Source: Ruminococcus sp. (lineage in GTDB: Bacteria; Bacillota; Clostridia; Oscillospirales; Ruminococcaceae). Taken from it: 64,000 nt of DNA. Each line of letters starts with the position of its first letter. Within the stretch, counting starts at the first letter, position 1. Below the pieces are notes generated by a model. It was not told the DNA's origin. It searched no databases and saw only the letters and a program-made list of their open reading frames with translations. Shown here one piece after another: positions 3,184 to 61,961 of this stretch. The stretch is taken from assembly GCA_017470905.1 (NCBI GenBank), contig JAFUXL010000010.1:1-64000 (forward strand), written 5' to 3'. The translations under genes were made by a program, and so were the position numbers.

Positions 3184-3279
3184 CAGGGGGGTTGGGGGGA
3201 ATGCCGCCGCTTGCGCCGGGAGAGAATGCAGCGCAGCGGAATGAACGAAAGCGCAAGGTTCAAACGGCGGCTCCCCCCA
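3184..3279. repeat. Nested covarying hairpin repeat, copy 1 (GC-arm type)
   Basis: Outer arms GCCGCCG (3203) and CGGCGGC (3265), further enclosed by G-rich and C-rich tracts (GGGGGGTTGGGGGG and CTCCCCCC); a short middle stem GCGC/GCGC; and the family core with AGCGCAGCG and TGAACGAAA. It lies between the convergent MATE and nucleotidyltransferase genes. Confidence 0.65.
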
Positions 3280-3286
3280 TATATAA

Positions 3287-3302
3287 TGTTCCACGTGGAA
3301 CA
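3287..3302. promoter_or_regulatory. parS-type palindrome, perfect copy 2
   Basis: TGTTCCACGTGGAACA; its last base directly touches the stop codon (3303-3305, minus strand) of the nucleotidyltransferase gene. Confidence 0.85.
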
Positions 3303-18776: not shown

Positions 18777-18783
18777 CAATAGA

Positions 18784-25523: not shown

Positions 25524-25536
25524 ATTTATACCTCCT

Positions 25537-25625
25537 ATTTAAAACATTCAGGTTTGCGCCTCTGTAACCTTGCATCTTCATTCACTTCGCTGCGCTGCGT
25601 TCACTCCCGATGCAAGGGAGCAAAC
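25537..25625 (-). repeat. Nested covarying hairpin repeat, copy 2
   Basis: Minus strand: outer arms GTTTGC/GCAAAC, middle stem GCATC/GATGC, family core GTGAACGCAGCGCAGCG, tail GTTTTAAATAGGAGG, whose GGAGG is the jag Shine-Dalgarno. Confidence 0.7.
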
Positions 25626-25632
25626 TTTCTGT

Positions 25633-25727
25633 TATTTAAAATCGTCAAATTTTCGCCCTTATAATCTTGCCTGCTCACTCACTGCGTTACACTTAGTTCG
25701 TTCATACGGCAAGGGCGAAAATTTTCC
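25633..25727 (-). repeat. Nested covarying hairpin repeat, copy 3
   Basis: Second, adjacent copy directly after yidC. Outer arms AAAATTTTCGCCCTT and AAGGGCGAAAATTT, short inner GCC/GGC, core diverged (GAACTAAGTGTAACGCAGTG), tail GACGATTTTAAATAACAG without a Shine-Dalgarno. Copies 2 and 3 lie in tandem in the same orientation. Confidence 0.65.
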
Positions 25728-43344: not shown

Positions 43345-43476
43345 GGCGGCTCCCCCCATTCAGGATAAACAGGGGGGTTTGGGGGGAAAAGCCGCCCCTT
43401 GACATGAGAATGAACGGAACGGAGCGCAGTGAATGAAATGTCAAGGTTCAAAGGGCGGCTCCCCCTATTCAGGACA
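43345..43476 (+). repeat. Nested covarying hairpin repeat, copy 4 (GC-arm type)
   Basis: Outer arms GCCGCCCCTT (43391) and AAAGGGCGGC (43450), middle stem GACAT (43401-43405)/ATGTC (43438-43442), core GAATGAACGGAACGGAGCGC. A partial GGGCGGCTCCCCCC arm precedes it at 43345. The Shine-Dalgarno of the next gene follows. AT-rich repeats fill 43230-43342. Confidence 0.7.
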
Positions 43477-43490
43477 GGAGGTTTATGCTT

Positions 43491-44264: not shown

Positions 44265-44288
44265 TTAAAAGTTTGGCAATTTAGAGTA

Positions 44289-44317: not shown

Positions 44318-44378
44318 ATTATTATAGCTGATAGTGTGTTTTCATCAGCAAGAAATTTGAACTGGAGGACTGGATTAA

Positions 44379-45518: not shown

Positions 45519-45593
45519 TAAACCAAGAAATATTCACTTTTCATATTTATCCTTTCTTTCTATCGCTGTGTGCGAGAGTATACAGCGGACGAG

Positions 45594-45625
45594 AAGCCGC
45601 AGTTATGTTGCGGCTTTTTGTTTTT
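45594..45625 (+). terminator. Terminator of msmK
   Basis: AAGCCGCA (45594-45601) pairs with TGCGGCTT (45609-45616), followed by TTTTTGTTTTT. Confidence 0.88.
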
Positions 45626-45688
45626 AATCCATAATCATAATTTAATGCATAATTAACAATTATAATGCATAATTCATAATTATCAAGA

Positions 45689-45786
45689 GGAAATTTTCGC
45701 CCTTGCATTGGGAATGAACGAAGCTTTGCGGAGTGAACGAAATGGCAAGCCTAAAAGGCGAAAATTGACGATTTTGAATAGGGGTT
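45689..45786 (+). repeat. Nested covarying hairpin repeat, copy 5
   Basis: Outer arms AAATTTTCGCCCTT and AAAAGGCGAAAATT, inner CTTGC-ATT/AATGGCAAG with one bulge, core GAATGAACGAAGC...GAGTGAACGAA, tail TTGACGATTTTGAATAGGGG, which serves as the Shine-Dalgarno of the peptidase gene. Preceded by TAATGCATAATTCATAATT repeats (45627-45682). Confidence 0.7.
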
Positions 45787-45791
45787 TTTTA

Positions 45792-47075: not shown

Positions 47076-47078
47076 AAA

Positions 47079-47111
47079 AATCTCCTCATGCGTATCCATG
47101 AGGAGATTTCG
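47079..47111. terminator. Bidirectional terminator
   Basis: AAATCTCCTCATG and CATGAGGAGATTT form a 13-bp stem; the T-run is long on the minus strand (seven T) and short on the plus strand. Confidence 0.85.
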
Positions 47112-47113
47112 GA

Positions 47114-47563
47114 TTAATAATCAGTTGAATTGGTTTCGGGTTCGCCGTCCATGCCGTCAATGATGTTGTCGCCTGCGTTCTGTGCGCCGTCGATAAGCTC
47201 ATCGCCTGCATTCTGTGCGCCGTTGATGATGTCCTTGCCGGCATCGCCTACTCCGTCAATTACGTCTTTTCCTGCATCGCCAACGCTGTCGATAACGTCC
47301 CTGCCTGCATCGCCGACACCGTCTGCGGCATCTTTTATGTGGTCTGAAACAGAGGGGTTGTTATCGGTGATACTCATATTGTTTTCTCTCCTGTTGATGT
47401 CGTCCTCTGTTATTCTCTTGTCGTGGTCGTAATCCCTTGTTGAGATGTCGGTTGTCGAGACGAAGCTTTCGCCGTTGTAGCCGTCATTGTAGCTGTTTGC
47501 GCCGCAGCTTGTGAATGCAGAGCAAACGGAAAGGAGAAGAGCTGTTATTAAAGCCTTTTTCAT
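47114..47563 (-). CDS. Lipoprotein with 11-residue repeats
   Basis: 149 residues. The start at 47563 gives a lipoprotein signal (MKKALITALLLSVCSAFTSC), and AAGGACGG precedes it; a longer open frame upstream lacks a start signal. The C-terminal half holds five 11-residue repeats of the form GVGDAGKDVID / GAQNAGDNIID, likely an amphipathic helix. I do not recognise the family. The protein is probably anchored on the outer face of the membrane. Confidence 0.72.
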   Translation of the reverse strand: MKKALITALLLSVCSAFTSCGANSYNDGYNGESFVSTTDISTRDYDHDKRITEDDINRRENNMSITDNNPSVSDHIKDAADGVGDAGRDVIDSVGDAGKDVIDGVGDAGKDIINGAQNAGDELIDGAQNAGDNIIDGMDGEPETNSTDY

Positions 47564-47673
47564 AAAATACCGTCCTTTTCTGTGATTTATTGCGGTTCTC
47601 CGCAATATACGGTTATTATTTACAGTATTTTTCCGTTTATCCGAAAAAGAGACAGTTTTTATTAAAAATCGGG

Positions 47674-47704
47674 TTTTCAACAGTTTTCAACAGAGTTTTC
47701 AACA
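47674..47704 (+). other. Cluster of three TTTTCAACA boxes
   Basis: TTTTCAACA at 47674, 47684 and 47696, same orientation, spaced 10 and 12 bases, in the gap between the lipoprotein and CPBP genes and about 17 kb from oriC. Identical to the boxes that fill oriC. Confidence 0.6.
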
Positions 47705-47729
47705 GTCGGTGGAAAACCGTGTTTAAAAC

Positions 47730-48383
47730 TTATTGCAGCGTGAAAACCAGCAAATCCCAGTACATATGCAGCAGCACGACAGGGAGGATACTGCGTGTTT
47801 TTGTGAAAATGAAGCCGAATGTGAAGCTCAGAACCATTATGCTGAAAAATCCGCCCGACATCATATTCGCTGCGAAAACGCCGTTTTTTATCCATATCGG
47901 GAAATGAACGGCAAGGAAAAGGAGTGCATTCAAAACCAGTGCCGGGATTTTTCCGTTTTCCGTATACGTACCGTTCAGCAGCCAGCCACGGAAAACAGTC
48001 TCCTCCGTAATGCCGACAAAGAGAACTATTATTATATCAGCTGCTCCGAACTCCTCGCTCACAGCAATTCTGCCCTTTAATCTGAAAGAGGACATCAGTA
48101 TTATAAGCGTGAAAAAGATGAACACAGGCAGGATTTTAAGCCACCGTATTTTTATGTTAAAAAATTCCTCACGCTTTACATACATGAATTTGTTGTATTT
48201 CCCGATTAAAATCCACGCAGGCACGAACCATACGGAAAATTTAATCAATTCTCTGAGAAATTCCCCTAAGGCGGGGGAAAATTCGGAAAAGGGGTCGAAC
48301 AGCAGCATTCTCGCCGCCCATACTCCGTAAAAAATTATAACATATGCGATAAGGGTAAGTGTCAGTTTTTTATCCTTAATCAT
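47730..48383 (-). CDS. CPBP family intramembrane metalloprotease
   Basis: 217 residues with six to seven hydrophobic segments and the three family motifs: EETVFRG (EExxxR), FLAVHFP and LLHMYWD (second and third metal sites). Such proteases process prenylated or small exported peptides, including bacteriocin-like ones; no such peptide is adjacent. The ATG at 48383 follows AGGTG; it is eight bases after the DUF2461 gene. Confidence 0.87.
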   Translation of the reverse strand: MIKDKKLTLTLIAYVIIFYGVWAARMLLFDPFSEFSPALGEFLRELIKFSVWFVPAWILIGKYNKFMYVKREEFFNIKIRWLKILPVFIFFTLIILMSSFRLKGRIAVSEEFGAADIIIVLFVGITEETVFRGWLLNGTYTENGKIPALVLNALLFLAVHFPIWIKNGVFAANMMSGGFFSIMVLSFTFGFIFTKTRSILPVVLLHMYWDLLVFTLQ

Positions 48384-48390
48384 GGCGCAC

Positions 48391-49101
48391 CTACCACATA
48401 AATTCAACATCGGGGGCTTTCACGGTATGTTCCGTGACAGTCTCCTGTTTTTTGATTTCAAGAGTCTCGACTATACTGTGGAAATATTCGTTTAGAGGGG
48501 ACAGTATTTTAAATACCCTGATAATATCATCAGGGAGGTTTAAATTCCCCGATACCTGCTCACGGGGTACTTTTACGCTTGCGGAAATACCCTTTTTCTT
48601 AAAAAATTCCTCCGCCTGCGGAACGGTACAGGGCTTTGACCTTTTGTATTCATCGCCGCCGACTGCAATGCCCTCACTTTTTATTTTTTCAGTCATACCG
48701 AGAAAATAATCGGGATTTTCGGTCAGGTTGTTCCTGAAATATTCCATTACCCTTGCTTCGGGCTTCGGGAGGGCAAAGCCATATTCCACGCCCTCGGGGG
48801 AAATTTCAAAGAAAAGAGAGGGTGTTCTGTTCCAGTAAAGAGCGTCATAGCGTATATATATCCACAGAGTATCCCTGTAGTGTAGATAGGGCGGAAAACT
48901 TGCGTCCCTGTAAATTTTTCCCGCCTTGCAAATCATTCCCGTATCCTCAAAGGGCTTGAATATTTCCGTGCTTAAATCCTTAAGCGGGTGATATATCTTT
49001 TCCGTATAGATTTTTTTATGATTTTCAAACCATTCCTTGTTGTTGTTTTCTCTTATTCCGCAGAGAAATTCAAAGCCTTCGTCAGAAAATCCTGTAAACA
49101 T
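48391..49101 (-). CDS. DUF2461 domain protein
   Basis: 236 residues spanning a full DUF2461 domain (FSDEGFEFLCGIRENNNKEWFENHK...IYRDASFPPY...YGFALPKPEARVMEYFR). Function unknown. GGAGGATGCT stands before the ATG and belongs to a hairpin repeat; cotranscribed with the CPBP protease. Confidence 0.85.
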   Translation of the reverse strand: MFTGFSDEGFEFLCGIRENNNKEWFENHKKIYTEKIYHPLKDLSTEIFKPFEDTGMICKAGKIYRDASFPPYLHYRDTLWIYIRYDALYWNRTPSLFFEISPEGVEYGFALPKPEARVMEYFRNNLTENPDYFLGMTEKIKSEGIAVGGDEYKRSKPCTVPQAEEFFKKKGISASVKVPREQVSGNLNLPDDIIRVFKILSPLNEYFHSIVETLEIKKQETVTEHTVKAPDVEFMW

Positions 49102-49108
49102 AGCATCC

Positions 49109-49222
49109 TCCTATTTGAAATCAATTTAAAATCGTCAATCTGCGCCTTTGTGTCCTTGTCATTTCGTTCACTGCGCTGCGCTTCGTTCACTCCCATGACA
49201 ATGGCGAAAATTTCCTCTTATA
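49109..49222 (-). repeat. Nested covarying hairpin repeat, copy 6
   Basis: Minus strand: TTTTCGCCATT, middle stem GTCAT/ATGAC, core GGGAGTGAACGAAGCGCAGC and GCAGTGAACGAA, then GGCGCAGATTGACGATTTTA and AAATAGGAGG, the Shine-Dalgarno of the DUF2461 gene. AATTATGAATTATGAATT repeats follow at 49219-49246. Confidence 0.7.
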
Positions 49223-49247
49223 ATTATGAATTATGAATTATGAATTA

Positions 49248-49281
49248 TTAAAAAAGCTCCCTGCTGCCAGGAGACAGCAGG
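49248..49281 (-). terminator. Terminator of yfhO
   Basis: Minus strand CCCTGCTG (49281-49274) pairs with CAGCAGGG (49265-49258), then AGCTTTTTT. Confidence 0.85.
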
Positions 49282-49290
49282 GTCGGTTTA

Positions 49291-52200
49291 TTATTTTTTC
49301 TTTTTATTCTTTTTCGGCTTTGTATCCTGGTTATTTTCGTCATTGTTGTCATCTGCCGCAATTTCGTCCCTATCGTCGGATTTTTCGGATACATCGTCTT
49401 TTTCGTCCGGTTTTTCATCATTCTTTTCGTCAGATTTTTCGGGCGGACTGTTATCTGTGCCGTGGGATTTGAGTATCCGGACTTTTTTGCCATTGTCGGC
49501 AGGCTCGTCCGTGGGGGGCAGACCCTGTTTCATGCGCTCACGCATTTTTCTTTCAGCCGCCCAGACCTTGTTGTTTTTCTTGTCATAGATATAGAAGAGA
49601 ACAAGAACCGCTATGCCGATAATGAGCGTTACAATTCCCATGTGGAAGCCGGGGGGCGAATATGTCATTGAAATGGTATGCTCACCGGGGGTAAGCTTCA
49701 GACCTATCATTGCATTAAGGATAACGACAACGCCCGTATCTCCGGGTACATTGTTCTTTGCAAGCTTAGAGCCGTCATCTTTAACTGTATCCTCAAAGAG
49801 ATTGTCAACGGTTTTTCCGTCAACCTTAATTGTCCAGCCCGTTTCATAGGGGATTGAGGTATACAGTATCTGACCCTCCTGAGCGGTAACAGTACCCTCG
49901 ATGTGGTCGTCCGTGAATTTATCCATATTGATATTCATGGGCGATGCCTTTAGCTTCTGAATATCCTCGTGGAAAGCATCGTAGTCAAGCTGATAGAACT
50001 GGAAGTCCTTAATCATGATATATTCGTTGTTGCCCGTCTTGTCAATCTGTCTGATAGTAAGTCTTACTTCAATATCCGTGCCGGGTTCATACGAGCCGAT
50101 ATTTACTATCGAATATTCGTAGCCGTCGAAATATCCGCCGTAGCCCTTGTGATTTATGAAATTTCCGTCCTCGTCCTTTTCGCTCGAAATCCAGAGGTTT
50201 GCGCCTTTCTGATTGTCGGATTTGAGGAACATATAGATACATCTGTCGTTTTTTGCCGTAAGATGAAGATTTACGGTCGGGTCGCCTGCATTTGCGTTTG
50301 CATTGTAGCAGTGCTGACCGTTGTAGTCCGACTCCCAGCATTCTTTCATTTCGACCTCGGGGTCGGGAAGTCTTACGAAATAAGCCTTCGGGTTAAGCTC
50401 TCCCGAATAATCGGGGGTACTGCCCGTCATGCTGCTCATGAAATTGTTCATGCTGTTGAACGGGTTATCGTTTCCGAGGAAGCTGAGTTTCAGAATATCA
50501 TCATCAGCCATGAAAGCAATCGGGAGCGCATCGGGATTTTCATATACATCGAGGTTTGCTTCGTTTGCGTCCTTGTCGATGTATTTTGTAGAAAATACCT
50601 TGTTGTAATACGGACTCAAAAGCGACTTGTTGCTTGCGATATTCTTGTCGGGGTCGCAGAGGACGTATTTTATGCCGAGGAGAGAGTCCGCAACGGGGGT
50701 ATTTCCGTCATATCTTGTCTCATAGCTTTTTGTTGAATAGCCGAGGGTTTCGATAAAGCGGAGTATTCTCGTATTCATGACGGAGCTTGAATGTGAAAGA
50801 CCTTTCAGACCCCAAGCCTGATTGTCGTTTACGTTTCGGAAGAAGGTTTTCTCCGTCCTGTAAAGACTGCTGTCGTAGTCCTCAAGCTCCTGCGTGACAT
50901 TGGGGGCATACTTCACGACCTCATAGGTCTTGCGTTCGGAATAATATACCTCCTTGTGGATTTTCCAGAAAGTATCATAGGTATTGTAGCCTGCCTCGAA
51001 GAATACAACTGCGGCGAGTACTGCGGATATGACATTTCTTGATTTTACTTTTTTGGCATTTGAATAGAAATAGAGTATAACCAGATATACCGCCGCAAGG
51101 ACAAGACCGAAAGCAAGAGTACCCAGCCAGAGACGCTTCCAAGCCTCTCCGTTGTAGGTTTCGTCCGTGGTGTAGGGGAATTTTGCGACATACTGATATT
51201 TTGTCTCGTTGTATTCAAAGGACGGCATTTTCGCTTCAAAGAGGAATACAAGAACCGCAATTCCTGCGAATACCGCACCGAGACTTTTCGCATCGAGCTT
51301 ATATGCCGTGAATTTGGAGAACACATCGGCAGCCATAGCCACGAGTATGAAAGATACAAGGAAAGAATATCTGTAGGGCAGCCAGTTTGGGTCCTGTCCG
51401 CCGTGCCACATCATATTTATCGGCTTGATATACATACTGATGAACATGACGAGCAGAAGTGCGGCATAGCCGATTTTCTTTTTAAGCTTTATTTCCTTGT
51501 TCATGAAGTAGAGCGGAGCAAGGCAGGCGGAGAGAACACCGCAGTATATTTCGGGTCTGCCGTACATTTTTGTACCCGTATCCACGTTTACTGAATAGTA
51601 CTGGTCGGGGAGCAGACAGGGTACAAGCTCTATGGGGTTGAACATCGTCTTGAAGGTATAGTCGGGCTTCGAGAAATTGAACTTACCGAGGGCAAGCGCA
51701 TTGTAAACGGGCATAATCATGATATAGCTGCACAGCAGAACCGTAATTGTAGCTATAATCATAATGCCGATTGTCGATGCATATTCGGTGACGTTCCTGA
51801 ATTTTCTGCTTGTTCCTGCAAAGAGATAGTATACAAAATACAGTGCAACGAAAATCGCAACCATGAAGCCGATGTAGAAGTTGGCAACGAACATTATCGA
51901 AAGGGGAATTATATAATTTATTTTTCTTCCGTCATCTACGAGGTATTCAACGCCGAGGATTATAAGCGGCAGGAATACAGGGCCGTCAACCCACATGGGG
52001 TCTATGAGCTGTATTACGGAATAAGCCATGAGAGCGTACATTGTCGAGAATATAACCGACTGCAAGGGGGGGACATTCTTTGATTTCTGTGCATATACGC
52101 AGAAAGCCGTACCTGCCGCACCGAGCTTGCAGAGTTGCATTATCATAAGGCTTTCGAGAATGAAGGAGCGTGGCAGCAGGACTACAATGAATGTAAAGGG

Positions 52201-52518
52201 GCTTGCGAGGTAGTAGCCGATTACGCCCTGAAAACCGCCCGAAAGGTTTCTCGACCAGCTGTAGAGGGCTGTTCTTCCCTCCCAGAAGCATCTGCGGAGA
52301 TTTTCAAAGTAATATACATACTGACCGTTGAGGTCAAGGGTGAGAACCGAACGAGTGCCGAACGGATAGACCCTGAAAAATGCGTAGGCAACAAGTCCCA
52401 GAAGTGCAGGGATTAAAAATGCGGCGATGTAGTACAGGGGTCTGTACTTTACATATGCCCTTATAGGCTCAACGCTTATCACAGCACGGGATTTTGCGCC
52501 TGCTTTTGACTTAGACAA
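49291..52518 (-). CDS. yfhO: YfhO family membrane protein
   Basis: A 1075-residue polytopic protein with about thirteen membrane segments. The N-terminal half has the GT-C-like pattern of YfhO (LDLNGQYVYYFENLRRCFW, VDGPVFLPLIILGVEYLV), followed by an extracellular region (about 540-960), a last transmembrane helix and a long acidic/lysine tail. YfhO proteins glycosylate lipoteichoic acids. The start is TTG at 52518 behind AAAGGAGG. Length is somewhat above the Bacillus protein owing to the tail. Own promoter and terminator. Confidence 0.88.
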   Translation of the reverse strand: MSKSKAGAKSRAVISVEPIRAYVKYRPLYYIAAFLIPALLGLVAYAFFRVYPFGTRSVLTLDLNGQYVYYFENLRRCFWEGRTALYSWSRNLSGGFQGVIGYYLASPFTFIVVLLPRSFILESLMIMQLCKLGAAGTAFCVYAQKSKNVPPLQSVIFSTMYALMAYSVIQLIDPMWVDGPVFLPLIILGVEYLVDDGRKINYIIPLSIMFVANFYIGFMVAIFVALYFVYYLFAGTSRKFRNVTEYASTIGIMIIATITVLLCSYIMIMPVYNALALGKFNFSKPDYTFKTMFNPIELVPCLLPDQYYSVNVDTGTKMYGRPEIYCGVLSACLAPLYFMNKEIKLKKKIGYAALLLVMFISMYIKPINMMWHGGQDPNWLPYRYSFLVSFILVAMAADVFSKFTAYKLDAKSLGAVFAGIAVLVFLFEAKMPSFEYNETKYQYVAKFPYTTDETYNGEAWKRLWLGTLAFGLVLAAVYLVILYFYSNAKKVKSRNVISAVLAAVVFFEAGYNTYDTFWKIHKEVYYSERKTYEVVKYAPNVTQELEDYDSSLYRTEKTFFRNVNDNQAWGLKGLSHSSSVMNTRILRFIETLGYSTKSYETRYDGNTPVADSLLGIKYVLCDPDKNIASNKSLLSPYYNKVFSTKYIDKDANEANLDVYENPDALPIAFMADDDILKLSFLGNDNPFNSMNNFMSSMTGSTPDYSGELNPKAYFVRLPDPEVEMKECWESDYNGQHCYNANANAGDPTVNLHLTAKNDRCIYMFLKSDNQKGANLWISSEKDEDGNFINHKGYGGYFDGYEYSIVNIGSYEPGTDIEVRLTIRQIDKTGNNEYIMIKDFQFYQLDYDAFHEDIQKLKASPMNINMDKFTDDHIEGTVTAQEGQILYTSIPYETGWTIKVDGKTVDNLFEDTVKDDGSKLAKNNVPGDTGVVVILNAMIGLKLTPGEHTISMTYSPPGFHMGIVTLIIGIAVLVLFYIYDKKNNKVWAAERKMRERMKQGLPPTDEPADNGKKVRILKSHGTDNSPPEKSDEKNDEKPDEKDDVSEKSDDRDEIAADDNNDENNQDTKPKKNKKKK

Positions 52519-52579
52519 TTTTTTTCCTCCTTTTTTTGTATCAGGTGTGACAGATACCCGATATAAATCACTGATTTCT

Positions 52580-52608
52580 ATTATACTATACTTTTACGGC
52601 TTTTTCAA
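52580..52608 (-). promoter_or_regulatory. Promoter of yfhO
   Basis: Minus strand TTGAAA (52603-52608), 17-bp spacer, TATAAT (52580-52585). Confidence 0.78.
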
Positions 52609-52758
52609 GGGGGTAAATCAAAAAATTTTTACACATATACAAGACCGGAATACCGCATTATTTTGTTTATTTTTTCAGCATGACGGCATAGAAGGACAAA
52701 TTTTCCGCACTGTATGATATATCCTTGATATGGCAATTGTGAAATTTTAAAAAAACAG

Positions 52759-52787
52759 GTGACAAAAACAAAAACTTGTGTTATAAT
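52759..52787 (+). promoter_or_regulatory. Promoter of the flippase gene
   Basis: GTGACA (52759-52764), 17-bp spacer, TATAAT (52782-52787), 31 bases before the ATG. Confidence 0.72.
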
Positions 52788-52817
52788 ATAGTCAAGAAAA
52801 ATTTCGGAGATGAAAAA

Positions 52818-54245
52818 ATGAACAAATACAAAAAGCTTGCGTTCAATACAATAGTTTTTGCCATAGGTACATTCGGCTCTAAAATCCTCGTAATACTGCT
52901 TACGAACCTGTATACCAAGAATATATCCTCCGACGGCATGAGCGACAAGGATTTGCTCGACACAATGGTATTGTTTCTTCAGCCCGTCTTTACCTTTGCG
53001 CTTCAGGAATATCTCATACGCTTCGGTCTTGATAAAAATTATGACAAAAGGGAAGTGTTCACCACATCATTCTGCATGACATTCATCGGAATGGCTGCAT
53101 CTGCGGCATTAATTCCACTGCTGGGAATGATACCCTTTTTTAATTTCATAAACGGCTATACCCTCGTTCTGATTGTATATTTAAGCACATCTTCACTGCG
53201 TATGCTCTGCGCACAGTTTGTAAGGTCGAGGGATATGGTAAAATTATTTTCCCTTGACGGAATACTCGCCACGCTCACGCTTTTCATATTCAACATAGTA
53301 TTCATATCGCATATGCACCTCGGAGTAAGGGGAAGTATGTACGCTGTCATACTCTCGGATTTCTGCTCGTCGGTATTCCTTTTCGCAGTCGGCGGACTGC
53401 AAAAATTCCTCGGAAGAAAATATCTCAGCGGAAAACTTGCGAAAATTATGCTGAAATTCTCCCTCCCCCTTATCCCCACGATAGTAATGTGGACGATAAC
53501 GGGACTTTCGGACAGATTATTCATACGCTATATGACAAGCGAAAGGGTACAGCTCGGAGCAGGTGCCGCCGGGCTTTATGCCGTTGCAAACAAGATACCA
53601 AACCTCATATCAATGGTATCGACTATATTCTTTCAGGCGTGGAATATGTCGGCGATTACGGAGAATGACTCGGAGGACAGGAGCATATTCTATGAAAAGG
53701 TATATTCCGCATACGAGGCAATGCTCTTTATGGCATCTGCGGGGCTTATACTCTTTGCAAGGCCCATAAGCTCGATAATAGCCAATTCAAGCACCTACAG
53801 CGAATACGGTACGGTATATATCTATACGCCCGTACTGATAATAGCCGTGCTTTTCACCTGCTTAAATCAGTTTCTGGGGAGCATATACACGGCGACAAAG
53901 CACACGAAAAATTCATTCTGGACTGCGCTTATAGCCTGCTGTGTAAATCTTTTCATGAATTATATGCTTATCCCCGAATGGGGCATACAGGGAGCATCTG
54001 TAGCTACGTTTTTAAGCTACTACATATGCTTCTGGGTCAGAATGGTTGATGCAAGGTATTATGTGCCGTTCCGCTTTGATAAATTCAAATCGCTCCTGAA
54101 TACAGTTCTTCTCCTCGAAATGAGCCGCCTTATGATATTTGAATGTGATGATTATATGCTGCGCATGGGAATAATCACGGCGGCGGTATGCGCCATTAAT
54201 TTCCGTTCGCTGCTCTCAACAGTACAGAAACTAATCAAGAGATGA
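52818..54245 (+). CDS. Oligosaccharide flippase (Wzx/MurJ-like, MOP superfamily)
   Basis: A 475-residue membrane protein with twelve to fourteen hydrophobic segments, starting NKYKKLAFNTIVFAIGTFGSKI, typical of lipid-linked oligosaccharide flippases for surface polysaccharides. GGAGATG precedes the ATG at 52818; an in-frame ATG at 52776 overlaps the promoter. Its neighbour YfhO also acts on surface polymers, but no glycosyltransferase cluster is present, so the substrate is unknown. Confidence 0.88.
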   Translation: MNKYKKLAFNTIVFAIGTFGSKILVILLTNLYTKNISSDGMSDKDLLDTMVLFLQPVFTFALQEYLIRFGLDKNYDKREVFTTSFCMTFIGMAASAALIPLLGMIPFFNFINGYTLVLIVYLSTSSLRMLCAQFVRSRDMVKLFSLDGILATLTLFIFNIVFISHMHLGVRGSMYAVILSDFCSSVFLFAVGGLQKFLGRKYLSGKLAKIMLKFSLPLIPTIVMWTITGLSDRLFIRYMTSERVQLGAGAAGLYAVANKIPNLISMVSTIFFQAWNMSAITENDSEDRSIFYEKVYSAYEAMLFMASAGLILFARPISSIIANSSTYSEYGTVYIYTPVLIIAVLFTCLNQFLGSIYTATKHTKNSFWTALIACCVNLFMNYMLIPEWGIQGASVATFLSYYICFWVRMVDARYYVPFRFDKFKSLLNTVLLLEMSRLMIFECDDYMLRMGIITAAVCAINFRSLLSTVQKLIKR

Positions 54246-54253
54246 ATACAGGA

Positions 54254-54353
54254 GGAAAATTTTCGCCCTTGTGCTGAAAGTGAACGAAGCGCAGCGCAGT
54301 GAACGAAAGCACAAGGTTTCAAAGGCGAAAATTTGACGACTTTAAATAGGAGG
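54254..54353 (+). repeat. Nested covarying hairpin repeat, copy 7 (best preserved)
   Basis: Outer arms AAAATTTTCGCCCTT (54256-54270) and AAGGCGAAAATTT (54322-54334), middle stem GTGCT (54271-54275)/AGCAC (54308-54312), core GTGAACGAAGCGCAGCGCAG then TGAACGAA, tail TTGACGACTTTAAATAGGAGG. The GGAGG is the Shine-Dalgarno for the kinase gene at 54360. Confidence 0.78.
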
Positions 54354-54359
54354 TAGTTT

Positions 54360-55280
54360 ATGAACATAGAGATAAACAGAATAAATGACGAAATACAGGA
54401 GAGTGCTTCCAAATTTGTAAAGCTTATCAACGAAGCGTATTTGTATCAGCTTGAAAGAATAGTCGATAAAATAGCCGCAGAAAAAAACGAAAAGCCCGTC
54501 ATACTCCTTTCGGGTCCTTCCGGTTCGGGAAAGACCACAACAGCTTTCATGATTGAAAAGCTTTTGAACGAAAAGGGCAGTCCCACGCATACTCTCTCAA
54601 TGGATAATTATTTCTGTCCGCTGACAGATGAGGAGAAAAAACTCGCCGCACTCGGAAAAATGGATTTGGAGTCGCCCGACCGTATTGACAAACAGCTGCT
54701 CAACGAACAGATAGAGGCTGTTGAAAAATGCATACCCGTTGAAATCCCGAAGTACAATTTCGCAAATTCCAGCCGTGAAAAATCCGAAATAACCCTCACG
54801 AGAAAAGAGGGCGAAATGGTTATATTCGAGGGCATACATTCGCTCAATCCCGATGTAATAACCGTACCCGACAGCCGCATATGCAAGCTTTATGTCAGCG
54901 TAAGGACGAGAATAACCTGCGGTGATATTATGCTCCACCCCTCCAAGATAAGACTTCTGCGCCGCATGATAAGAGACAGCCTCTTTCGAAAGCGTTCGCT
55001 GAGGGAGACAATGAATATGTTTGCAAGCGTGGAAAGCGGCGAAAACAAGTACATAATGCCCTATAAGCACCGTTCGGATTACGATATAGATACATTCATG
55101 GCTTATGAGCTGAACGTCTACAGGGATTTGCTTATGTGGCAGCTTGAAGAAATGTCGGATATTCCCGAGCTTGCGGACGTTATGAAAGTGCTTGAACAGA
55201 CTGCTCCCATGAAAAGCTCATCAGTGCCGTCCGACTCACTCATATGCGAATTTATCGGCAAAGGACAATTCAAGTATTAA
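54360..55280 (+). CDS. Uridine kinase-like P-loop kinase
   Basis: 306 residues of the phosphoribulokinase/uridine kinase family with P-loop GPSGSGKTTT near 48, SMDNYF, FEGIHSLNP and an arginine-rich lid (LRRMIRDSLFRKRS). Relatives include uridine kinase and the kinase half of TgtA5/threonyl-tRNA-synthetase-like fusions; this one lacks the extra N-terminal TGS domain. It phosphorylates a nucleoside or sugar, not determined. GGAGG from a hairpin repeat lies before the ATG; TAATGCATAAT repeats start at its stop codon. Confidence 0.82.
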   Translation: MNIEINRINDEIQESASKFVKLINEAYLYQLERIVDKIAAEKNEKPVILLSGPSGSGKTTTAFMIEKLLNEKGSPTHTLSMDNYFCPLTDEEKKLAALGKMDLESPDRIDKQLLNEQIEAVEKCIPVEIPKYNFANSSREKSEITLTRKEGEMVIFEGIHSLNPDVITVPDSRICKLYVSVRTRITCGDIMLHPSKIRLLRRMIRDSLFRKRSLRETMNMFASVESGENKYIMPYKHRSDYDIDTFMAYELNVYRDLLMWQLEEMSDIPELADVMKVLEQTAPMKSSSVPSDSLICEFIGKGQFKY

Positions 55281-55354
55281 TGCATAATTTATAATTCATA
55301 ATTCATAATTGTGTTTGCCTGCGGCAATCCAATTTAAATAAAAGAGGTTTAGCT

Positions 55355-58279
55355 ATGGAAAATTATTCTCTCGGTATTGATATTGGCTCTACTACGGTAA
55401 AGACCGTCGTAACCGATGTAAACAGCAATATAGTGTATTCAAAATATCAGCGTCATCTCTCAAAGGTGAGAGAAACCGTAAAAGACCAGCTTAAAATAAT
55501 TCAGGCTGATTACCCGAACGAGAGATTTACTGTATGCATTACAGGCTCGGCCGGGCTTGGTCTTGCAAATTCGGCACAGATACCCTTTGTGCAGGAGGTT
55601 CATGCGGCATTCCTCGCCGTGAAGAAAAAATATCCCGATGCAGATGCCGTCATAGAACTCGGCGGAGAGGACGCTAAAATTATTTTCCTCACGGGCGGTG
55701 TCGAGCAGCGCATGAACGGCTCCTGTGCGGGCGGTACGGGTGCATTTATCGACCAGATGGCAACGCTCCTCGGAATATCGGCGGACGAACTCGACAAGCT
55801 CTCCCTGCGTGCAAACAAGGTATATCCCATAGCATCAAGGTGCGGAGTTTTCGCAAAATCCGACATTCAGCCGCTTTTAAATCAGGGCGCAGGACGTGAG
55901 GACATAGCCGCAAGCATATTTCAGGCGGTGGTTGACCAGACTGTTTCGGGACTTGCACAGGGAAGAACTATCGAGGGCAAGGTATTATTTCTCGGAGGCC
56001 CTCTGTTTTTTCTGAAAGGTCTTAAAAAAGCCTTTGTGAATACTCTAGGACTTGACGGCGAACATGCATTGTTTCCGGACGAAGCCCCCGTATTCGTGGC
56101 TTACGGCTGTTCGCTGTATGCTGCAAATTCGGAGGATACGCTCACTGTCGGACAGATTATTTCCAGGATAGACGGCGCAAAAATTTCCGACAGCATTGTC
56201 ACAGGTGAGCCGCTTTTCAAATCACAGGCGGAATATGATGAATTTATCGCAAGGCACAGGAAATTTGACCTCGGATATGCGGATATACGCAAATACAAGG
56301 GCGATGCCTACCTCGGCATAGATGCAGGCTCGACTACCACAAAGCTTGTCCTCATAACCGATGACGGAAGAATATTGTATCATCATTATTCTTCAAATCA
56401 GGGTCAGCCCCTCGACAAGATAGCCGAACAGCTGAAAATAATATATGAAAATCTAACACCCGATATACAGATAAAGGGTTCGGCGGTTACGGGCTACGGA
56501 GAGGATTTAATCAAATCGGGACTTATGATTGACTGCGGAATTGTCGAAACCGTGGCGCATTTCAAGGCGGCGGCATATTTCTGTCCCGATGTCGATTTCA
56601 TAATAGACATAGGCGGACAGGATATAAAATGCTTTAAGATAAAAAACGGGACAATCGACAGCATAATGCTCAATGAAGCCTGCTCTTCGGGCTGCGGCTC
56701 GTTCATACAGACGTTCGCAATGGCACTCGGCTATGATATTGCCGAATTTTCCCAGCTCGGACTTTTTGCCCGTCACCCCGTTGACCTCGGCTCACGCTGT
56801 ACGGTATTCATGAACAGCTCCGTAAAACAGGCGCAGAAGGACGGCGCAACCGTCGAGGATATTTCCGCAGGTCTTTCGTCATCTATCATAAAGAATGCGA
56901 TATACAAGGTAATCCGTGCCAATTCCCCCGATGAACTCGGAAAAAATATAGTCGTTCAGGGCGGTACGTTCCTGAATGATGCCGTTCTGCGTTCGTTCGA
57001 GAAAGAAATGGGAAGAAATGTCATACGTCCTGCAATTTCGGGGCTTATGGGAGCATTCGGCTGTGCGCTGTATGCAAAGGAACGCTCGGAAGGCTCTTCA
57101 ACGCTCATATCTGCGCAGGAACTTGAAAATTTCACGTATACCTCACGCTCGGCACAGTGCGGAGGCTGTACCGCAAACTGTCAGCTTAATATCATAAGCT
57201 TCGGCAGGGGCAGACGCTTCATTTCGGGAAACAGGTGCGAAAAGGGCGGCGGACAGGCCAGAAGAAACAACATTCCCAATCTCTATGAATACAAGTACAG
57301 CAGCATTGTATCGCTCGGCAAGTCAAACCAGCCGAAAAGACCCCGTGCGAGGGTCGGACTTCCGCTTGCACTCAGCTTTTATGAGCAGATGCCATTCTGG
57401 AATACGCTCTTCTGTGAACTCGGCTTCGAGACGGTATTCTCGGACGAAAGCTCCCGTCAGATGTATTATCTCGGACAGCACACAATTCCGTCCGATACGG
57501 TATGCTATCCGGCAAAGCTGACACACGGGCATATAGAAAATCTTCTCGACAAGGGGGTTGATTTCATATTCTATCCGTGCATGAGCTATAATATCGATGA
57601 GGGTCAGAGCGACAACCATTTCAACTGTCCCGTTGTGGCATATTACCCCGAACTGCTCCTTGCGAACAATCCGAGACTTAATGATAAAAACTTCATTCAC
57701 CCCTATCTCGATTTGAACAACAAGAAAAATGTTATAAGGGTGCTGTCCGGTTCGCTGAAAAAATACAATATAAAGGGAAAAATCCCCGATGCCGTACATC
57801 TTGCCTACCGTGCAGCAAAGGCTTACCGCCGTGATGCTGCAGTGAAAGCCGCAGAAATTATCCGTCAGGCAAGAGCCGAAAACCGAAAAATTATCGTCCT
57901 CGCAGGCAGACCCTATCACATAGACAAGGAGATAAACCACGGCATACAGAAGCTTATTACAAGTCTCGGAATGGCAGTGGTCACGGAGGACAGCGTTGCA
58001 ATGCTTGCAGGAACTCCCGATTTGAAGGTGCTGAACCAGTGGACATATCATGCAAGGCTCTACAGGGCGGCGAATTTTGTCGCCTCACAGCCCGATATGC
58101 AGCTTGTGCAGCTTGTGTCATTCGGCTGCGGAATAGATGCCGTAACGTCCGATGAAGTGAGGTCTGTACTCGAAAGCAGGGGAAAGCTCTATACACAGCT
58201 TAAAATTGATGAAATAAACAATCTCGGTGCGGCAAGGATAAGGCTCAGAAGCCTTGCGGCGGCAGCCGAACAGAAATAA
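55355..58279 (+). CDS. 2-hydroxyacyl-CoA dehydratase activase-like protein (BcrAD/BadFG, two ATPase domains)
   Basis: A 974-residue protein with two ASKHA ATPase domains: the first from GIDIGSTTVKTVV (about 5-255), the second from GIDAGSTTTKLV (about 322-575) with the cluster region NEACSSGCGSFIQTF. Then follow CGGCTANC, a further cysteine-bearing linker, and a DUF2229-type domain (about 640-965). Activases use ATP to inject an electron into 2-hydroxyacyl-CoA dehydratases. Elsewhere a single protein of about 1400 residues combines this with the module encoded next door. Eleven bases separate it from that gene. The cellular substrate of this long form is unknown. Confidence 0.85.
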   Translation: MENYSLGIDIGSTTVKTVVTDVNSNIVYSKYQRHLSKVRETVKDQLKIIQADYPNERFTVCITGSAGLGLANSAQIPFVQEVHAAFLAVKKKYPDADAVIELGGEDAKIIFLTGGVEQRMNGSCAGGTGAFIDQMATLLGISADELDKLSLRANKVYPIASRCGVFAKSDIQPLLNQGAGREDIAASIFQAVVDQTVSGLAQGRTIEGKVLFLGGPLFFLKGLKKAFVNTLGLDGEHALFPDEAPVFVAYGCSLYAANSEDTLTVGQIISRIDGAKISDSIVTGEPLFKSQAEYDEFIARHRKFDLGYADIRKYKGDAYLGIDAGSTTTKLVLITDDGRILYHHYSSNQGQPLDKIAEQLKIIYENLTPDIQIKGSAVTGYGEDLIKSGLMIDCGIVETVAHFKAAAYFCPDVDFIIDIGGQDIKCFKIKNGTIDSIMLNEACSSGCGSFIQTFAMALGYDIAEFSQLGLFARHPVDLGSRCTVFMNSSVKQAQKDGATVEDISAGLSSSIIKNAIYKVIRANSPDELGKNIVVQGGTFLNDAVLRSFEKEMGRNVIRPAISGLMGAFGCALYAKERSEGSSTLISAQELENFTYTSRSAQCGGCTANCQLNIISFGRGRRFISGNRCEKGGGQARRNNIPNLYEYKYSSIVSLGKSNQPKRPRARVGLPLALSFYEQMPFWNTLFCELGFETVFSDESSRQMYYLGQHTIPSDTVCYPAKLTHGHIENLLDKGVDFIFYPCMSYNIDEGQSDNHFNCPVVAYYPELLLANNPRLNDKNFIHPYLDLNNKKNVIRVLSGSLKKYNIKGKIPDAVHLAYRAAKAYRRDAAVKAAEIIRQARAENRKIIVLAGRPYHIDKEINHGIQKLITSLGMAVVTEDSVAMLAGTPDLKVLNQWTYHARLYRAANFVASQPDMQLVQLVSFGCGIDAVTSDEVRSVLESRGKLYTQLKIDEINNLGAARIRLRSLAAAAEQK

Positions 58280-58290
58280 GGTGATTATAC

Positions 58291-59520
58291 ATGGCAGATT
58301 ACGTTAAATTCACGGAAGATATGAAGAAAACCCACACGATACTCGTCCCCGATATGCTCCCCGTGCATTTCAGGCTTATTATAGCTATCTTCACGGCGGA
58401 GGGCTATAAAATGCATTTATTGCAGAATGACAGCAGAAGGGTTGTTGACGAGGGACTTAAAAACGTCCATAACGATGCCTGTTATCCTGCACTCCTCGTC
58501 ATAGGTCAGTTTATGGACGCTCTTAACAGCGGAAAATTCGACCCCGACAAGACTGCTCTTCTCATAACCCAGACGGGCGGCGGCTGCCGTGCCTCGAATT
58601 ATATATATCTCCTGAGAAAAGCCGTTGCAAGGAATTATCCGCAGATACCCGTTGTATCACTCAATTTCAGCGGACTTGAAAAGGACAGCGCATTCAGGAT
58701 AACTCCCCTTATGTTCGTGAAAATGCTCTACGCTGTCGTTTACGGCGATTTGCTCATGAGCTGCTACAACAAATGCAGGGCATACGAGATAAAAAAGGGC
58801 GAGTCGAAAAAAATACTGAATAAATGGCAGAACAGAATTTGCAATATGTTCCGCAAGAAAAGCAATATGTACCTGCGGCTCGAAAAAATCTCAAAGGATA
58901 TTCTCGACGATTTCGCAAAAATCCCCCTCACGGACGAGAAAAAAATCAGGGTGGGCATTGTAGGGGAGATATATGTAAAATATTCCCCCCTTGCGAACAA
59001 CCACCTTGAGGATTTCCTCATATCCGAGGGCTGTGAGCCTGTCGTTCCTGCGCTGCTTGAATTTGTCATGTACTGTGCGGCAGGAAATTTCAACGATGCG
59101 GATTTATACGACAACCACACGAAAAGCTCGTTCCTCAATCTTGCAGGCTACAGGCTGATATATTCCATTCAGAAGAGAATGCGGAGGATAATGGAAAAAC
59201 AGGGCAGCTTTGAGCCTTTCCACGATTTTGAACATCTGCGCAGTCTTGCGGACAAGTATATCAATCAGGGCGTTGTCATGGGAGAGGGCTGGCTGATACC
59301 TGCGGAAATGGCTGCACTTGCAAAGTCGGGAGTTGACAATATAATCTGTACCCAGCCGTTCGGCTGTCTGCCCAATCATATAGTGGCAAAGGGTATGTCG
59401 AGGGCAATAAAGCAGGATAATCCGGATGCGAACATAGTTGCGATAGATTACGACCCCGGCGCAACAAGAGTAAATCAGGAGAACCGCATAAAGCTAATGC
59501 TCGCAAACGCAAGGAAATAA
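58291..59520 (+). CDS. 2-hydroxyacyl-CoA dehydratase-like module (DUF2229-associated)
   Basis: 409 residues corresponding to the C-terminal module of long activase-dehydratase proteins: NDACYPALLVIGQFMDAL, LLITQTGGGCRASNY, VVSLNFSGLEKDSAF and TQPFGCLPNHIV with cysteines that could hold an iron-sulfur cluster. AAGGTG precedes the ATG and only eleven bases separate it from the activase gene, so the two are cotranscribed and probably form one complex. Followed directly by TAATGCATAATC at its stop codon. Confidence 0.8.
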   Translation: MADYVKFTEDMKKTHTILVPDMLPVHFRLIIAIFTAEGYKMHLLQNDSRRVVDEGLKNVHNDACYPALLVIGQFMDALNSGKFDPDKTALLITQTGGGCRASNYIYLLRKAVARNYPQIPVVSLNFSGLEKDSAFRITPLMFVKMLYAVVYGDLLMSCYNKCRAYEIKKGESKKILNKWQNRICNMFRKKSNMYLRLEKISKDILDDFAKIPLTDEKKIRVGIVGEIYVKYSPLANNHLEDFLISEGCEPVVPALLEFVMYCAAGNFNDADLYDNHTKSSFLNLAGYRLIYSIQKRMRRIMEKQGSFEPFHDFEHLRSLADKYINQGVVMGEGWLIPAEMAALAKSGVDNIICTQPFGCLPNHIVAKGMSRAIKQDNPDANIVAIDYDPGATRVNQENRIKLMLANARK

Positions 59521-59606
59521 TGCATAATCAATGCATAATTCATAATTAGTAATGCTTTCAGCATTACAAAAATGCCGCAGACAACAATATATTATGAATT
59601 ATGATT
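59521..59606 (+). repeat. AT-rich TAATGCATAATTCATAATT repeats
   Basis: Several units of TGCATAATTCATAATT and ATTATGAATTATGATTATG between the dehydratase-like gene and a MITE-like element. No gene lies in 59521-59851; the interval is filled by repeats. Confidence 0.55.
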
Positions 59607-59692
59607 ATGATTAAGCATTGTGAAATGATGTAAAAAATTTTTTATATTTTGTCTTTATTTCCTCCGCCGCAGGCGAAGGAAATATGAGCTGT
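59607..59692 (+). repeat. MITE-like element, copy i (truncated)
   Basis: AAATGATGTAAAAAATTTTT, TATTTTGTCTTTATTTCC and the hairpin TTTCCTCCGCC/GGCGAAGGAAA. Confidence 0.55.
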
Positions 59693-59733
59693 TTTTATTG
59701 CCGCAGGCAATATAATTATGAATTATGAATTTA

Positions 59734-59835
59734 AAGGGGGGTTTGGGGGGAATAAGCCGCCCCTTGCGCCGGTAGAGAACGGAGCGCAGCGCAGTGAACG
59801 AAGGCGCAAGCTTCAAGGGGCGGCTCCCCCCATTT
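59734..59835 (+). repeat. Nested covarying hairpin repeat, copy 8 (GC-arm type)
   Basis: G-tracts, outer arms GCCGCCCCTT (59756) and AAGGGGCGGC (59815), middle stem GCGCC (59766-59770)/GGCGC (59803-59807), core GAACGGAGCGCAGCGCAGTG then AACGAA, final CTCCCCCC matching the leading GGGGGG. Lies just before psd. Confidence 0.75.
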
Positions 59836-59851
59836 GAAATGAGGTGTTGTT

Positions 59852-60712
59852 TTGATTAAGGACAGGAGTGGCAGGATTGTTGTCACCAATCAGAAACAGA
59901 ATAAGCTTCTCAGGAGGCTCTACGGAACGCCAAAGGGCAGAAAAATTCTTAAACTGCTCACACGTCCCGTTGTCTCAAGGGCTGTCGGGGGATTTATGGA
60001 CTCAAGACTTTCCGTGCCTATGATAAAAAGATTTATAAAATCTTCGGGGATAGATATATCGGAATACAATATGACAAAATTCAGGTCGTACAACGATTTT
60101 TTCACCAGAACCATAAAGCCTGCCGTGCGCCCGATAGATTACAATGCAAAGCACCTGATAAGCCCGTGCGATGCAAAGCTTTCGGTCTATAAAATCAACA
60201 GGGACAGCGTATTCAGGATAAAAGACTCGTACTACAGAATTTCAGACCTCCTGAAGAATGAATTTCTTGCACGCAGATTTAATGACGGCTGGTGCATGAT
60301 ATTCCGCCTCGAAGTGGACGATTATCACCGCTACTGCTATATCGACGGCGGCGAAAAGACGGGAAATTATTTCATCGGCGGAGAGCTGCACACCGTAAAC
60401 CCCATAGCCCTTAAAAGATATAATATATACAAGCGCAACAGCCGTGAATATACTGTCATGCATACGGAGAATTTCGGCGATGTGGTACAGGTCGAGGTCG
60501 GGGCGATGATGGTGGGAAGAATATGCAATCACCACAGGGAATACCGTTTCAACCGTGGTGAAGAAAAAGGTATGTTCCAGTTCGGCGGCTCTACGATAGT
60601 AATGCTTTTCGAGGAGGACAGCGTAATCCCCGATGATGATATACTTTCAAATACCCTTTCGGGATATGAGACAATCGTGAAATACGGCGAAAAAATAGGC
60701 ATAAGAGGCTGA
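59852..60712 (+). CDS. psd: Phosphatidylserine decarboxylase proenzyme
   Basis: Makes phosphatidylethanolamine at the membrane after self-cleavage to a pyruvoyl enzyme. The 286 residues show FFTRTIKPAVRPID, SPCDAKLSVYKI, the DYHRYCYIDGG histidine motif, GELHTVNPIAL and the cleavage site FGGSTIVML (Ser becomes the pyruvoyl group). The start is TTG at 59852 after GAGGTG. No phosphatidylserine synthase is adjacent. Confidence 0.93.
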   Translation: MIKDRSGRIVVTNQKQNKLLRRLYGTPKGRKILKLLTRPVVSRAVGGFMDSRLSVPMIKRFIKSSGIDISEYNMTKFRSYNDFFTRTIKPAVRPIDYNAKHLISPCDAKLSVYKINRDSVFRIKDSYYRISDLLKNEFLARRFNDGWCMIFRLEVDDYHRYCYIDGGEKTGNYFIGGELHTVNPIALKRYNIYKRNSREYTVMHTENFGDVVQVEVGAMMVGRICNHHREYRFNRGEEKGMFQFGGSTIVMLFEEDSVIPDDDILSNTLSGYETIVKYGEKIGIRG

Positions 60713-60713
60713 T

Positions 60714-61961
60714 ATGGCAGGATTTTCCGAACTGATAAAGAATTATGAGAAAACACGGGACTATATAAGGGATTTCTTCATCTTTGGCTTTAAGGTGAGG
60801 AACGAATACAACCGTAAAAGCTCCCGTACATATGATGACGAGAAAAGGCGGATTGAAAGCTGGCTCGGCGAATACATGACCTTTGAGCGTTCGGTCAAGG
60901 GTCAGCATACGGCTATAACCGCAGACAGCGGACATATAAGCGAAAATCCGCTGTATCAGACGTTCTGTTCGAGAAGCTTTACCGACAACGATATAAAGCT
61001 GCATTTCATGATAGCCGATATTCTGTACAAATCGGGATATATGACATTAAGGCAGATAGTTGACGGCATAAACGAGAGATTTGAGGAAATTTTCGATGAA
61101 CAGACCGTCCGCAACAAGCTGAGGGAATATTCCGCAGAGGGTATAATAATATGCCGCAAAAAGGGCAAGACCGCATATTTCGGGCTTTCCTGCGATACCG
61201 TGCGGAGCTTTCTCGATGAATATAAGGGGCTTGAAGATGCCGTAAAATTCTTTTCTGAGAATGACGAATTCAGCGTCATAGGCAACAGCATACTTAAATT
61301 TGCAGACATTAAAAACGATATATTCCTCATGAAGCATTATTTCATAGTGCATACCCTTGAAGATATACTCCTTTATGATATAATAAACGCAATCAGGGAG
61401 AAGAGGTATATAACGCTCAATTCCTTCGGCACTGGCGGCAGGGAGCAGAAAATAGTCCCCATGCAGATATTTGTCTCCGTGCGCACGGGCAGGAGATATA
61501 TAACGGGTTTCAGCCGTGAGCATGAGAATTTCGGCTCGTACCGCCTTGATTTCATAAAGAACATAACACCGGGCGGTGTGTGTTCCGATTATGACGGTAT
61601 TAAAAAGATATTCGATGAAAACAGTAAATTCTGCTACGGTGTGTCTTTCGTAAAATCGAGGGAATTTCAGGAAAATATCCCCATGAGGATAGTTTTCCGC
61701 ATTGAGGAGAATGAGGACTATATCCTTGAACGTCTCGAACGTGAAAAGAGATGCGGAGAAATTGACAGATGCGGCGATAATCTTTATTTCCTGACACTGC
61801 GGATATTCGACCCGAATGAGGCTATGCACTGGGTGAAGAGCTTTTTCGGACGGATAGTTTCGGTTGAGGGAACGAGCGATGAGGTGAAAAACAGGTTTTA
61901 CCGTGACGTACAGGATATGTATGCACTTTACGGAGGCTATGAAGATGACGGTGTTCAGTGA
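60714..61961 (+). CDS. WYL-domain regulator 1 with winged helix
   Basis: 415 residues. A DNA-binding winged helix lies at about 95-160 (YMTLRQIVDGINERFEEIFDEQTVRNKLREY), and a WYL domain at about 215-320 (RYITLNSFGTGGREQKIVPM, RRYITGFSREHENFGSYRLD). WYL proteins respond to nucleic-acid ligands in DNA-damage or defence control. The ATG overlaps the psd stop region by one base, so psd and the WYL genes are cotranscribed. Confidence 0.8.
   Translation: MAGFSELIKNYEKTRDYIRDFFIFGFKVRNEYNRKSSRTYDDEKRRIESWLGEYMTFERSVKGQHTAITADSGHISENPLYQTFCSRSFTDNDIKLHFMIADILYKSGYMTLRQIVDGINERFEEIFDEQTVRNKLREYSAEGIIICRKKGKTAYFGLSCDTVRSFLDEYKGLEDAVKFFSENDEFSVIGNSILKFADIKNDIFLMKHYFIVHTLEDILLYDIINAIREKRYITLNSFGTGGREQKIVPMQIFVSVRTGRRYITGFSREHENFGSYRLDFIKNITPGGVCSDYDGIKKIFDENSKFCYGVSFVKSREFQENIPMRIVFRIEENEDYILERLEREKRCGEIDRCGDNLYFLTLRIFDPNEAMHWVKSFFGRIVSVEGTSDEVKNRFYRDVQDMYALYGGYEDDGVQ

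Follow-up and report, generated by a model that had tools for sequence, protein, structure and literature searches.

A hairpin repeat of about 100 bases is present in many copies in a rumen Ruminococcus and two close relatives, and it is probably a lineage-specific, BOX/REP-like, non-autonomous element that inserts in sense orientation just 5′ of Shine–Dalgarno (SD) sequences. The family was confirmed as real and more extensive than reported in a preliminary description of the window (the whole 64,000-nucleotide stretch of Ruminococcus sp. DNA analysed here), which was made from the sequence alone. The repeat is apparently mobile, in line with the mobile 5′ leader element suggested in that description: copies differ among close relatives, and three arrays lie in a phage contig.

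The repeat family and its copies in the window

A covariance model (R1), built from an alignment of 61 of 68 distinct units taken from stretches around core matches, identified the seven window copies for which bit scores are given in Table 1. A profile scan resolved the reverse-strand array at 25533–25727 into two units and thereby added one further copy, so that the eight copies listed previously were recovered as eight copies in seven arrays. The common core on which they had been aligned recurred in the window, with two exact 20-nt matches, four with at most three mismatches and none in 100 shuffled sequences, but it was loose: three of the seven R1 copies matched it only with four or five mismatches, and the eighth unit had no match even at five. 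Across the genome, 58 core matches with at most three mismatches were found, compared with none for the reversed pattern. The genome carries at least 150 R1 copies; all 150 scored candidates passed an E value of 0.01, and this count is a minimum, being the best 150 of 1193 first-look candidates in an assembly that is 74% complete. Arrays probably break the assembly, which makes the copy numbers too low. The profile scan covered 667,740 bases, picked because they hold copies, and gave 247 matches in 160 arrays (94 single, 50 double, 11 triple and 5 quadruple). Contig ends in or beside arrays were seen in the own genome (G000) at C19:72100, C25:1, C28:20, C28:140451 and C11:13797.

Table 1. Repeat copies and associated features in the window
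Feature	Position	Strand	Remarks
Type B copy (GGGGG.../...CCCCC arms)	3194..3293	+	R1 76.1 bits; without gene start within 60 nt downstream
Type A copy nearest jag, last unit of two-unit array	25531..25632	−	R1 90.3 bits; Jag_N and R3H domains downstream
First unit of tandem array at jag; variant CTTGCC/GGCAAG head	25629..25727 (start approximate)	−	Profile array 25533–25727
Type B copy ahead of S4/pseudouridine synthase gene (43485)	43382..43481	+	R1 80.9 bits; RGIG7051 site unfilled
Type A copy ahead of M20 peptidase gene (ATG 45792)	45686..45785	+	R1 95.9 bits; RGIG7051 copy with different stems
Type A copy ahead of DUF2461 gene (48391–49101)	49118..49218	−	R1 99.1 bits
Type A copy under study, ahead of uridine-kinase-like gene (ATG 54360)	54252..54353	+	R1 109.9 bits; RGIG7051 site unfilled
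SD purine tract AGGAGG right after element tail TTTAAAT	54345..54351 (ends approximate)	+	Read as native; unfilled RGIG7051 site has GGAGGTA
Type B copy ahead of phosphatidylserine decarboxylase gene (TTG 59852)	59747..59846	+	R1 92.4 bits; RGIG7051 copy with different stems
Second repeat	1389, 9417, 13414, 14420, 59606	+	
Second repeat	19033, 28069, 39111	−	
Third repeat, examples	3126, 14378, 45643, 55272, 63953		

On the sense strand, the 5′ part of the element consists of a purine-rich left end, an outer arm, the inner stem CTTGNNNN, GRGAGTGAACG and a tiny apical stem; the 3′ part consists of GTGAACGAA, NNNNCAAG, a 3′ bulge, the outer arm and the tail GACGATTTTAAAT. The inner stem is thus CTTGNNNN/NNNNCAAG, and the internal loop is symmetric (UGAACG/UGAACG). 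The outer stem has two arm types, approximately AAATTTTCGCC/GGCGAAAATT in type A and GGGGG...GCCGCC/GGCGGC...CCCCC in type B. Among 93 type A left ends, AAGAGG occurred 42 times, CAGAGG nine times and AGGAGG eight times. The outer arms are inverted repeats, whereas by eye the left AAGAGG and right GACGATTTTAAAT, whose ends are approximate, are not. Units of about 96 nt are joined head to tail in the arrays. Variant copies in the relative RGIG7051 had a longer AAAAAATC-TTT-GATTTTT stem at the apex (e.g., C2:24452–24549, C26:965–1065 and C49:9714–9816). Two other readings, judged by eye, were rejected or weakened: a leader peptide from the core GTG, some copies stopping at GTTTAA and others reaching AAATAA, and a rho-independent terminator.

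Distribution among genomes and in a phage contig

Dense carriers besides the own genome were two species represented by rumen MAGs, RGIG7051 and UBA4383. The search of related genomes with a covariance model, which the preliminary description had proposed, found R1 in four of 125 genus genomes under strict filters with the best 32 candidates scored per genome: the own genome, G025, G103 and, weakly, G017 with a single weak match. G025 is RGIG7051 (same matches at the same coordinates), and G103 was taken as UBA4383 from common match coordinates. An earlier search of relatives had found the family in three of 60. The exact degenerate core pattern occurred in 62 stretches of the genome_contigs collection, 43 from RGIG7051 and 19 from UBA4383, in a scan that may leave out records of the window's own genome. 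Of 60 genus genomes, four had the type B arm pattern, G035 among them with one copy. Sister hairpins in G017 (L039:1045–1236, a tandem pair) and G035 (C165:3085–3171) combined type B arms with other inner stems and loops (GAGAGCGA...GAGCGAA). The viral contig (IMG/VR IMGVR_UViG_3300021431_000623; L129) carried arrays at 3295–3487, 3827–3923 and 4959–5055, which lay between phage genes and in the genes' orientation; genes for capsid, portal and terminase are found in the same stretch.

Placement ahead of genes

The arrays lie mainly at gene starts. At 108 of 136 arrays, a same-strand ORF of 60 aa or more began no further than about 25 nt downstream, compared with six of 136 in the reverse control (opposite strand, other end), after 24 of the 160 arrays at sequence ends had been set aside. 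With ORFs of at least 100 aa, the same test on 136 arrays gave 101 versus two, and a wider 60-nt test, with 20 of 160 arrays set aside, gave 119 versus 21 of 140. The copies were therefore not mainly away from gene starts, an outcome that the preliminary description, together with a lack of transcription, had named as adverse to its reading. In the window, six of the seven arrays (seven of the eight copies) stood directly ahead of a start codon on their own strand, as had been stated for seven copies, the array at 3194 being the exception (Table 1). Start codons were mostly 9–14 nt past the profile end. The tail was recognised in 127 of 140 arrays, and after it an SD-like motif followed within 11 nt in 94; in 13 the tail was followed immediately by ATG, with no SD on that side, and 20 showed neither.

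Such a pattern might also arise after insertion, if the repeat inserted loosely between genes and copies were lost unless they lay in sense orientation and abutted an SD, where the tail would space the hairpin harmlessly from the ribosome-binding site. The fixed junction could then be a filter, and the 28 of 136 arrays without a gene start of this kind indicate that other positions exist. However, the narrow junction, together with the near-empty reverse control, is less easily explained by a filter alone, and we consider selection after insertion a rather unlikely account of the placement.

Filled and unfilled sites and the origin of the SD

Three 20-kb own-genome segments and window positions 43001–60800 were compared with syntenic stretches of RGIG7051 (loci L168 and L169 not counted). 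Arrays without an ORF or an ortholog, or with a poor N-terminus, were set aside (4 of 22 in the own genome and 2 of 11 in RGIG7051). Only 4 of 18 own-genome arrays and 4 of 9 RGIG7051 arrays were common to both genomes at orthologous sites. Among the 14 unshared own-genome sites, five had by eye a relic tail or a variant hairpin in RGIG7051 (L165:2, L166:18579, L167:964, L167:6794 and L167:15044), two were weak rows (L167:16191 with a doubtful ORF and L166:2899 with a 43% identical ortholog) and seven, including 54254, were clean cases. Gain and loss of copies both occur, and loss is as visible as gain. In the unfilled RGIG7051 orthologs of L165:2, L166:18579 and L021, a GACGATTTTAAAT-like tail was all that remained ahead of the SD, as might be left by deletion of the hairpin.

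The preliminary description held that the element delivers the SD through its conserved tail. Many tails do read GACGATTTTAAATAAGGAGG or AGGAGG, and the SDs differed between filled and unfilled sites at L165:1942, L166:432 and L170:5845, with almost no match at L167:6794. Nevertheless, when the 17 nt preceding the start codon were compared in 16 unshared pairs, agreement was at 10.1 positions, compared with 7.9 in permuted pairs, and none of 2000 permutations was as high. Because this stretch is alike at orthologous sites with and without the repeat, the SD is generally native and mostly preceded the element. Like SDs were found at L005 (AAGGAGGTGTTTCA), L172:5860 (AAGAAAGGA) and L018 (GGAGGATTTTTTATG), and unusual ones such as AGAAAGGA and AGGGGG were kept in both filled and unfilled sites. 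Delivery of an SD carried by the element is thus largely refuted and appears very improbable. With regard to a target-site duplication of constant length, such as a MITE of a DDE transposon would show, the two flanks of the element resembled each other at certain sites (54254) but differed elsewhere (L165:10818, AAGAGG vs. AGAAAGG), and the left flank also resembled the SD of the unfilled site in some cases (L014 compared with UBA4383 locus L098; 54254).

Similarity between copies at orthologous sites was close to that of random cross-species copies (0.718 vs. 0.675, 19 pairs), and their variable stems scored nominally lower than those of random copies (0.316 vs. 0.450) in these 19 non-independent pairs. 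Shared sites therefore appear to have been refilled, converted or fast-evolving. The set of 45 pairs with a copy in both genomes and 26 without is biased; its loci were picked for carrying copies. Neighbouring units within arrays were more than 90% identical in 43% of 75 pairs, compared with 2% of random pairs, and these frequent close matches suggest that local duplication also builds arrays.

Stem covariation and folding

The covarying stems previously noted were upheld in the MAFFT alignment of 61 own-genome copies, in which 90.3% of 1159 stem cells paired, compared with 77.9% when the 3′ letters were shuffled and 20.4%–41.6% when partners were slid. In the same alignment, cells with both letters changed numbered 137, versus 43.9 in shuffles. 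Among 121 further copies from other loci, 98.2% of cells paired, in an alignment made by fitting to the model and hence biased in its favour. The leader at 54252–54365 was predicted to fold at −32 kcal/mol (z −4.0), and the predicted fold energies of 95 leaders were far below those of shuffled sequences (median z −4.1).

The variable stem consists of discrete matched alleles, with 56 combinations in 229 copies and rare single-step intermediates. Of the nine commonest combinations, eight were present in each of the three species, and eight were found with type A as well as type B arms. Wobble pairs were counted by strand in 229 of the 247 profile matches. The variable stem showed no wobble excess (13 G–T vs. 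17 A–C among 908 cells), and neither the eight inner pairs (18 vs. 26) nor the six outer pairs (36 vs. 23) had a clear strand preference. Only the apical pairs showed a strand-specific wobble preference, with G–T favoured on the sense strand (53 vs. 2 and 9 vs. 2) and one G–T in 210 of 228 copies. This strand specificity indicates that the sense strand folds at the apex, either as RNA or as single-stranded DNA.

The inner stem was nearly independent of arm type (mutual information 0.262; permuted 0.203, SD 0.025, largest 0.312). It was tied to the exact outer-arm letters (2.61 vs. 2.17 permuted, largest 2.32) and to the apical pair (1.00 vs. 0.65 permuted, largest 0.78). These associations count against unrestricted exchange of modules as the only origin of the stem alleles, which may in part have been exchanged in this way.

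The compensatory changes had been read as evidence for a selected RNA or single-stranded DNA structure. The strong covariation and the apical preference agree with that reading, but matched stem alleles without wobble excess weaken it, and the covariation is no clean proof of selection on RNA; stem covariation among mobile copies alone does not prove RNA function. Predicted SD exposure was also unchanged: it was 0.511 with the element and 0.503 with a dinucleotide-shuffled element, and was higher in 51 of 95 leaders (p = 0.40). An element tuned to open the SD was rejected or weakened accordingly, and the same result offers no obvious benefit of exact position that would favour selection after loose insertion.

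A cis-regulatory RNA, that is, a functional leader acting in mRNA stability, translation or protein binding, selected on its RNA structure and spreading by usefulness, could account for the covariation, the low fold energies, the apical preference and the sister types in G017, which have other loops on the same plan. It accords less well with the small share of arrays common to a close relative (4 of 18), with the diversity of the downstream genes, phage genes included, and with the lack of a wobble excess in the variable stem and of a predicted effect on SD exposure. We regard a regulatory leader RNA as a rather unlikely account of the family.

A possible mode of insertion

Under the preferred reading of a non-autonomous repeat inserting just 5′ of SDs, the family would have expanded within one small group of rumen Ruminococcus. 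Insertion would be strand-specific and would recognise an SD-like purine tract, with the hairpin as the feature recognised by the mover. Insertions might be tolerated because they would leave the SD and start codon intact, and each copy, with its SD-like left end, could serve as a new target and so promote array formation. A more specific proposal, which we put forward tentatively, is an SD-homing element: an enzyme might act on the folded sense strand (RNA or single-stranded DNA) and place the roughly 96-nt hairpin immediately 5′ of an SD purine tract. The element could then spread via gene leaders and in phages with the ribosome-binding site left intact, and its SD-like left end could seed tandem arrays. 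If insertion were truly aimed at SDs, this would be a choice of target not found in the literature searched, and it would explain how numerous leaders, as well as structural operons of phages, can receive the repeat without being destroyed. The one-, two- and multi-hairpin leaders within one genome also represent a natural test set for the effects of 5′ hairpins on mRNA.

A profile search with PF01797 (Y1 transposase) found no mover among the carriers. There were no hits in RGIG7051 or UBA4383, MAGs that may miss the gene, and the own genome had only a fragment (profile positions 69–121) within a decayed element; the family was present in G017, G030 and G034. A Y1/REP mover in the carriers was therefore rejected or weakened, the family being absent from two of three and a fragment in the third. 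The decayed IS605-like remnant (L141:1444–2777, from own-genome contig C28) comprised a short piece of Y1 transposase followed by ORFs that were TnpB-like by eye.

Other features of the window

Nine TGTTCCACGTG[GA]AACA palindromes were seen in the window (148, 3287, 9359, 9549, 10942, 14521, 15349, 19161 and 22804), which we take to resemble parS. They are near a ParB gene (19200–20015, reverse strand) and dnaA/dnaN (28648 and 30521), and are likely an origin-proximal centromere cluster. A second repeat consists of an AT-rich block with TTTTGTCTTTGTTCCC and then a GC hairpin around CCGCCTGCGGCGG; a third, of AATTCATAATTCATAATTATGCAT units, occupies many intergenic spacers and sometimes stands directly left of the hairpin element (Table 1). 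The sole Rfam match in the window was a TPP riboswitch (RF00059, 59.7 bits) at 18675–18782 on the reverse strand, upstream of thiamine genes including ThiG at 17019–17789.

Comparison with known systems

The statement that no described family matches the repeat still stands. Rfam gave no match to the element (positions 54200–54420 returned four matches far below gathering scores), and the literature searched, in which subscription journals were thinly covered, contained no description of the hairpin family or of an SD-targeted small repeat.

REP/RAYT and IS200/IS605-type elements have a hairpin, asymmetric ends and an orientation fixed to a short target. The Ruminococcus repeat shares with them a foldable hairpin and an orientation fixed to a short target, and differs in that the Y1 transposase family is missing or fragmentary in its carriers as described above. 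IS200/IS605 provides an analogy only; judging by the apical G–T preference, the folded strand would lie on the SD side, opposite to that of an element using a CCTCC target.

We know of no sequence relation between the Ruminococcus repeat and BOX, RUP and SPRITE of Streptococcus pneumoniae. According to the accessible part of a study of these repeats, they are small, structured, interspersed and modular, are almost restricted to one small group, are expressed in leaders and are thought to be parasitic (PMC3049150). BOX and RUP are reported to have terminal inverted repeats and target duplications, and their copies number about 100 or more (PMC3049150). Compared by anatomy only, the Ruminococcus repeat is likewise small, structured, interspersed, modular and restricted in range, whereas its sense-only, SD-abutting placement is not described for these three families in that part of the study (PMC3049150).

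A review on the Correia elements of Neisseria describes more than 120 RNA-structured copies, mainly immediately upstream of genes (PMC10969869). They resemble the Ruminococcus repeat in having many structured copies ahead of genes and differ in their terminal inverted repeats and promoters; the terms ‘Shine-Dalgarno’ and ‘ribosome binding’ do not occur in that review (PMC10969869).

The TAACTGA direct repeats of marine Beggiatoaceae are described as mostly replacing SDs, one being present in about 10% of repeat-bearing intergenic regions (PMC4679880). As heptanucleotide direct repeats, they differ from the Ruminococcus repeat in lacking a hairpin of its type, and they resemble it in placement, standing in forward orientation just upstream of start codons (PMC4679880).
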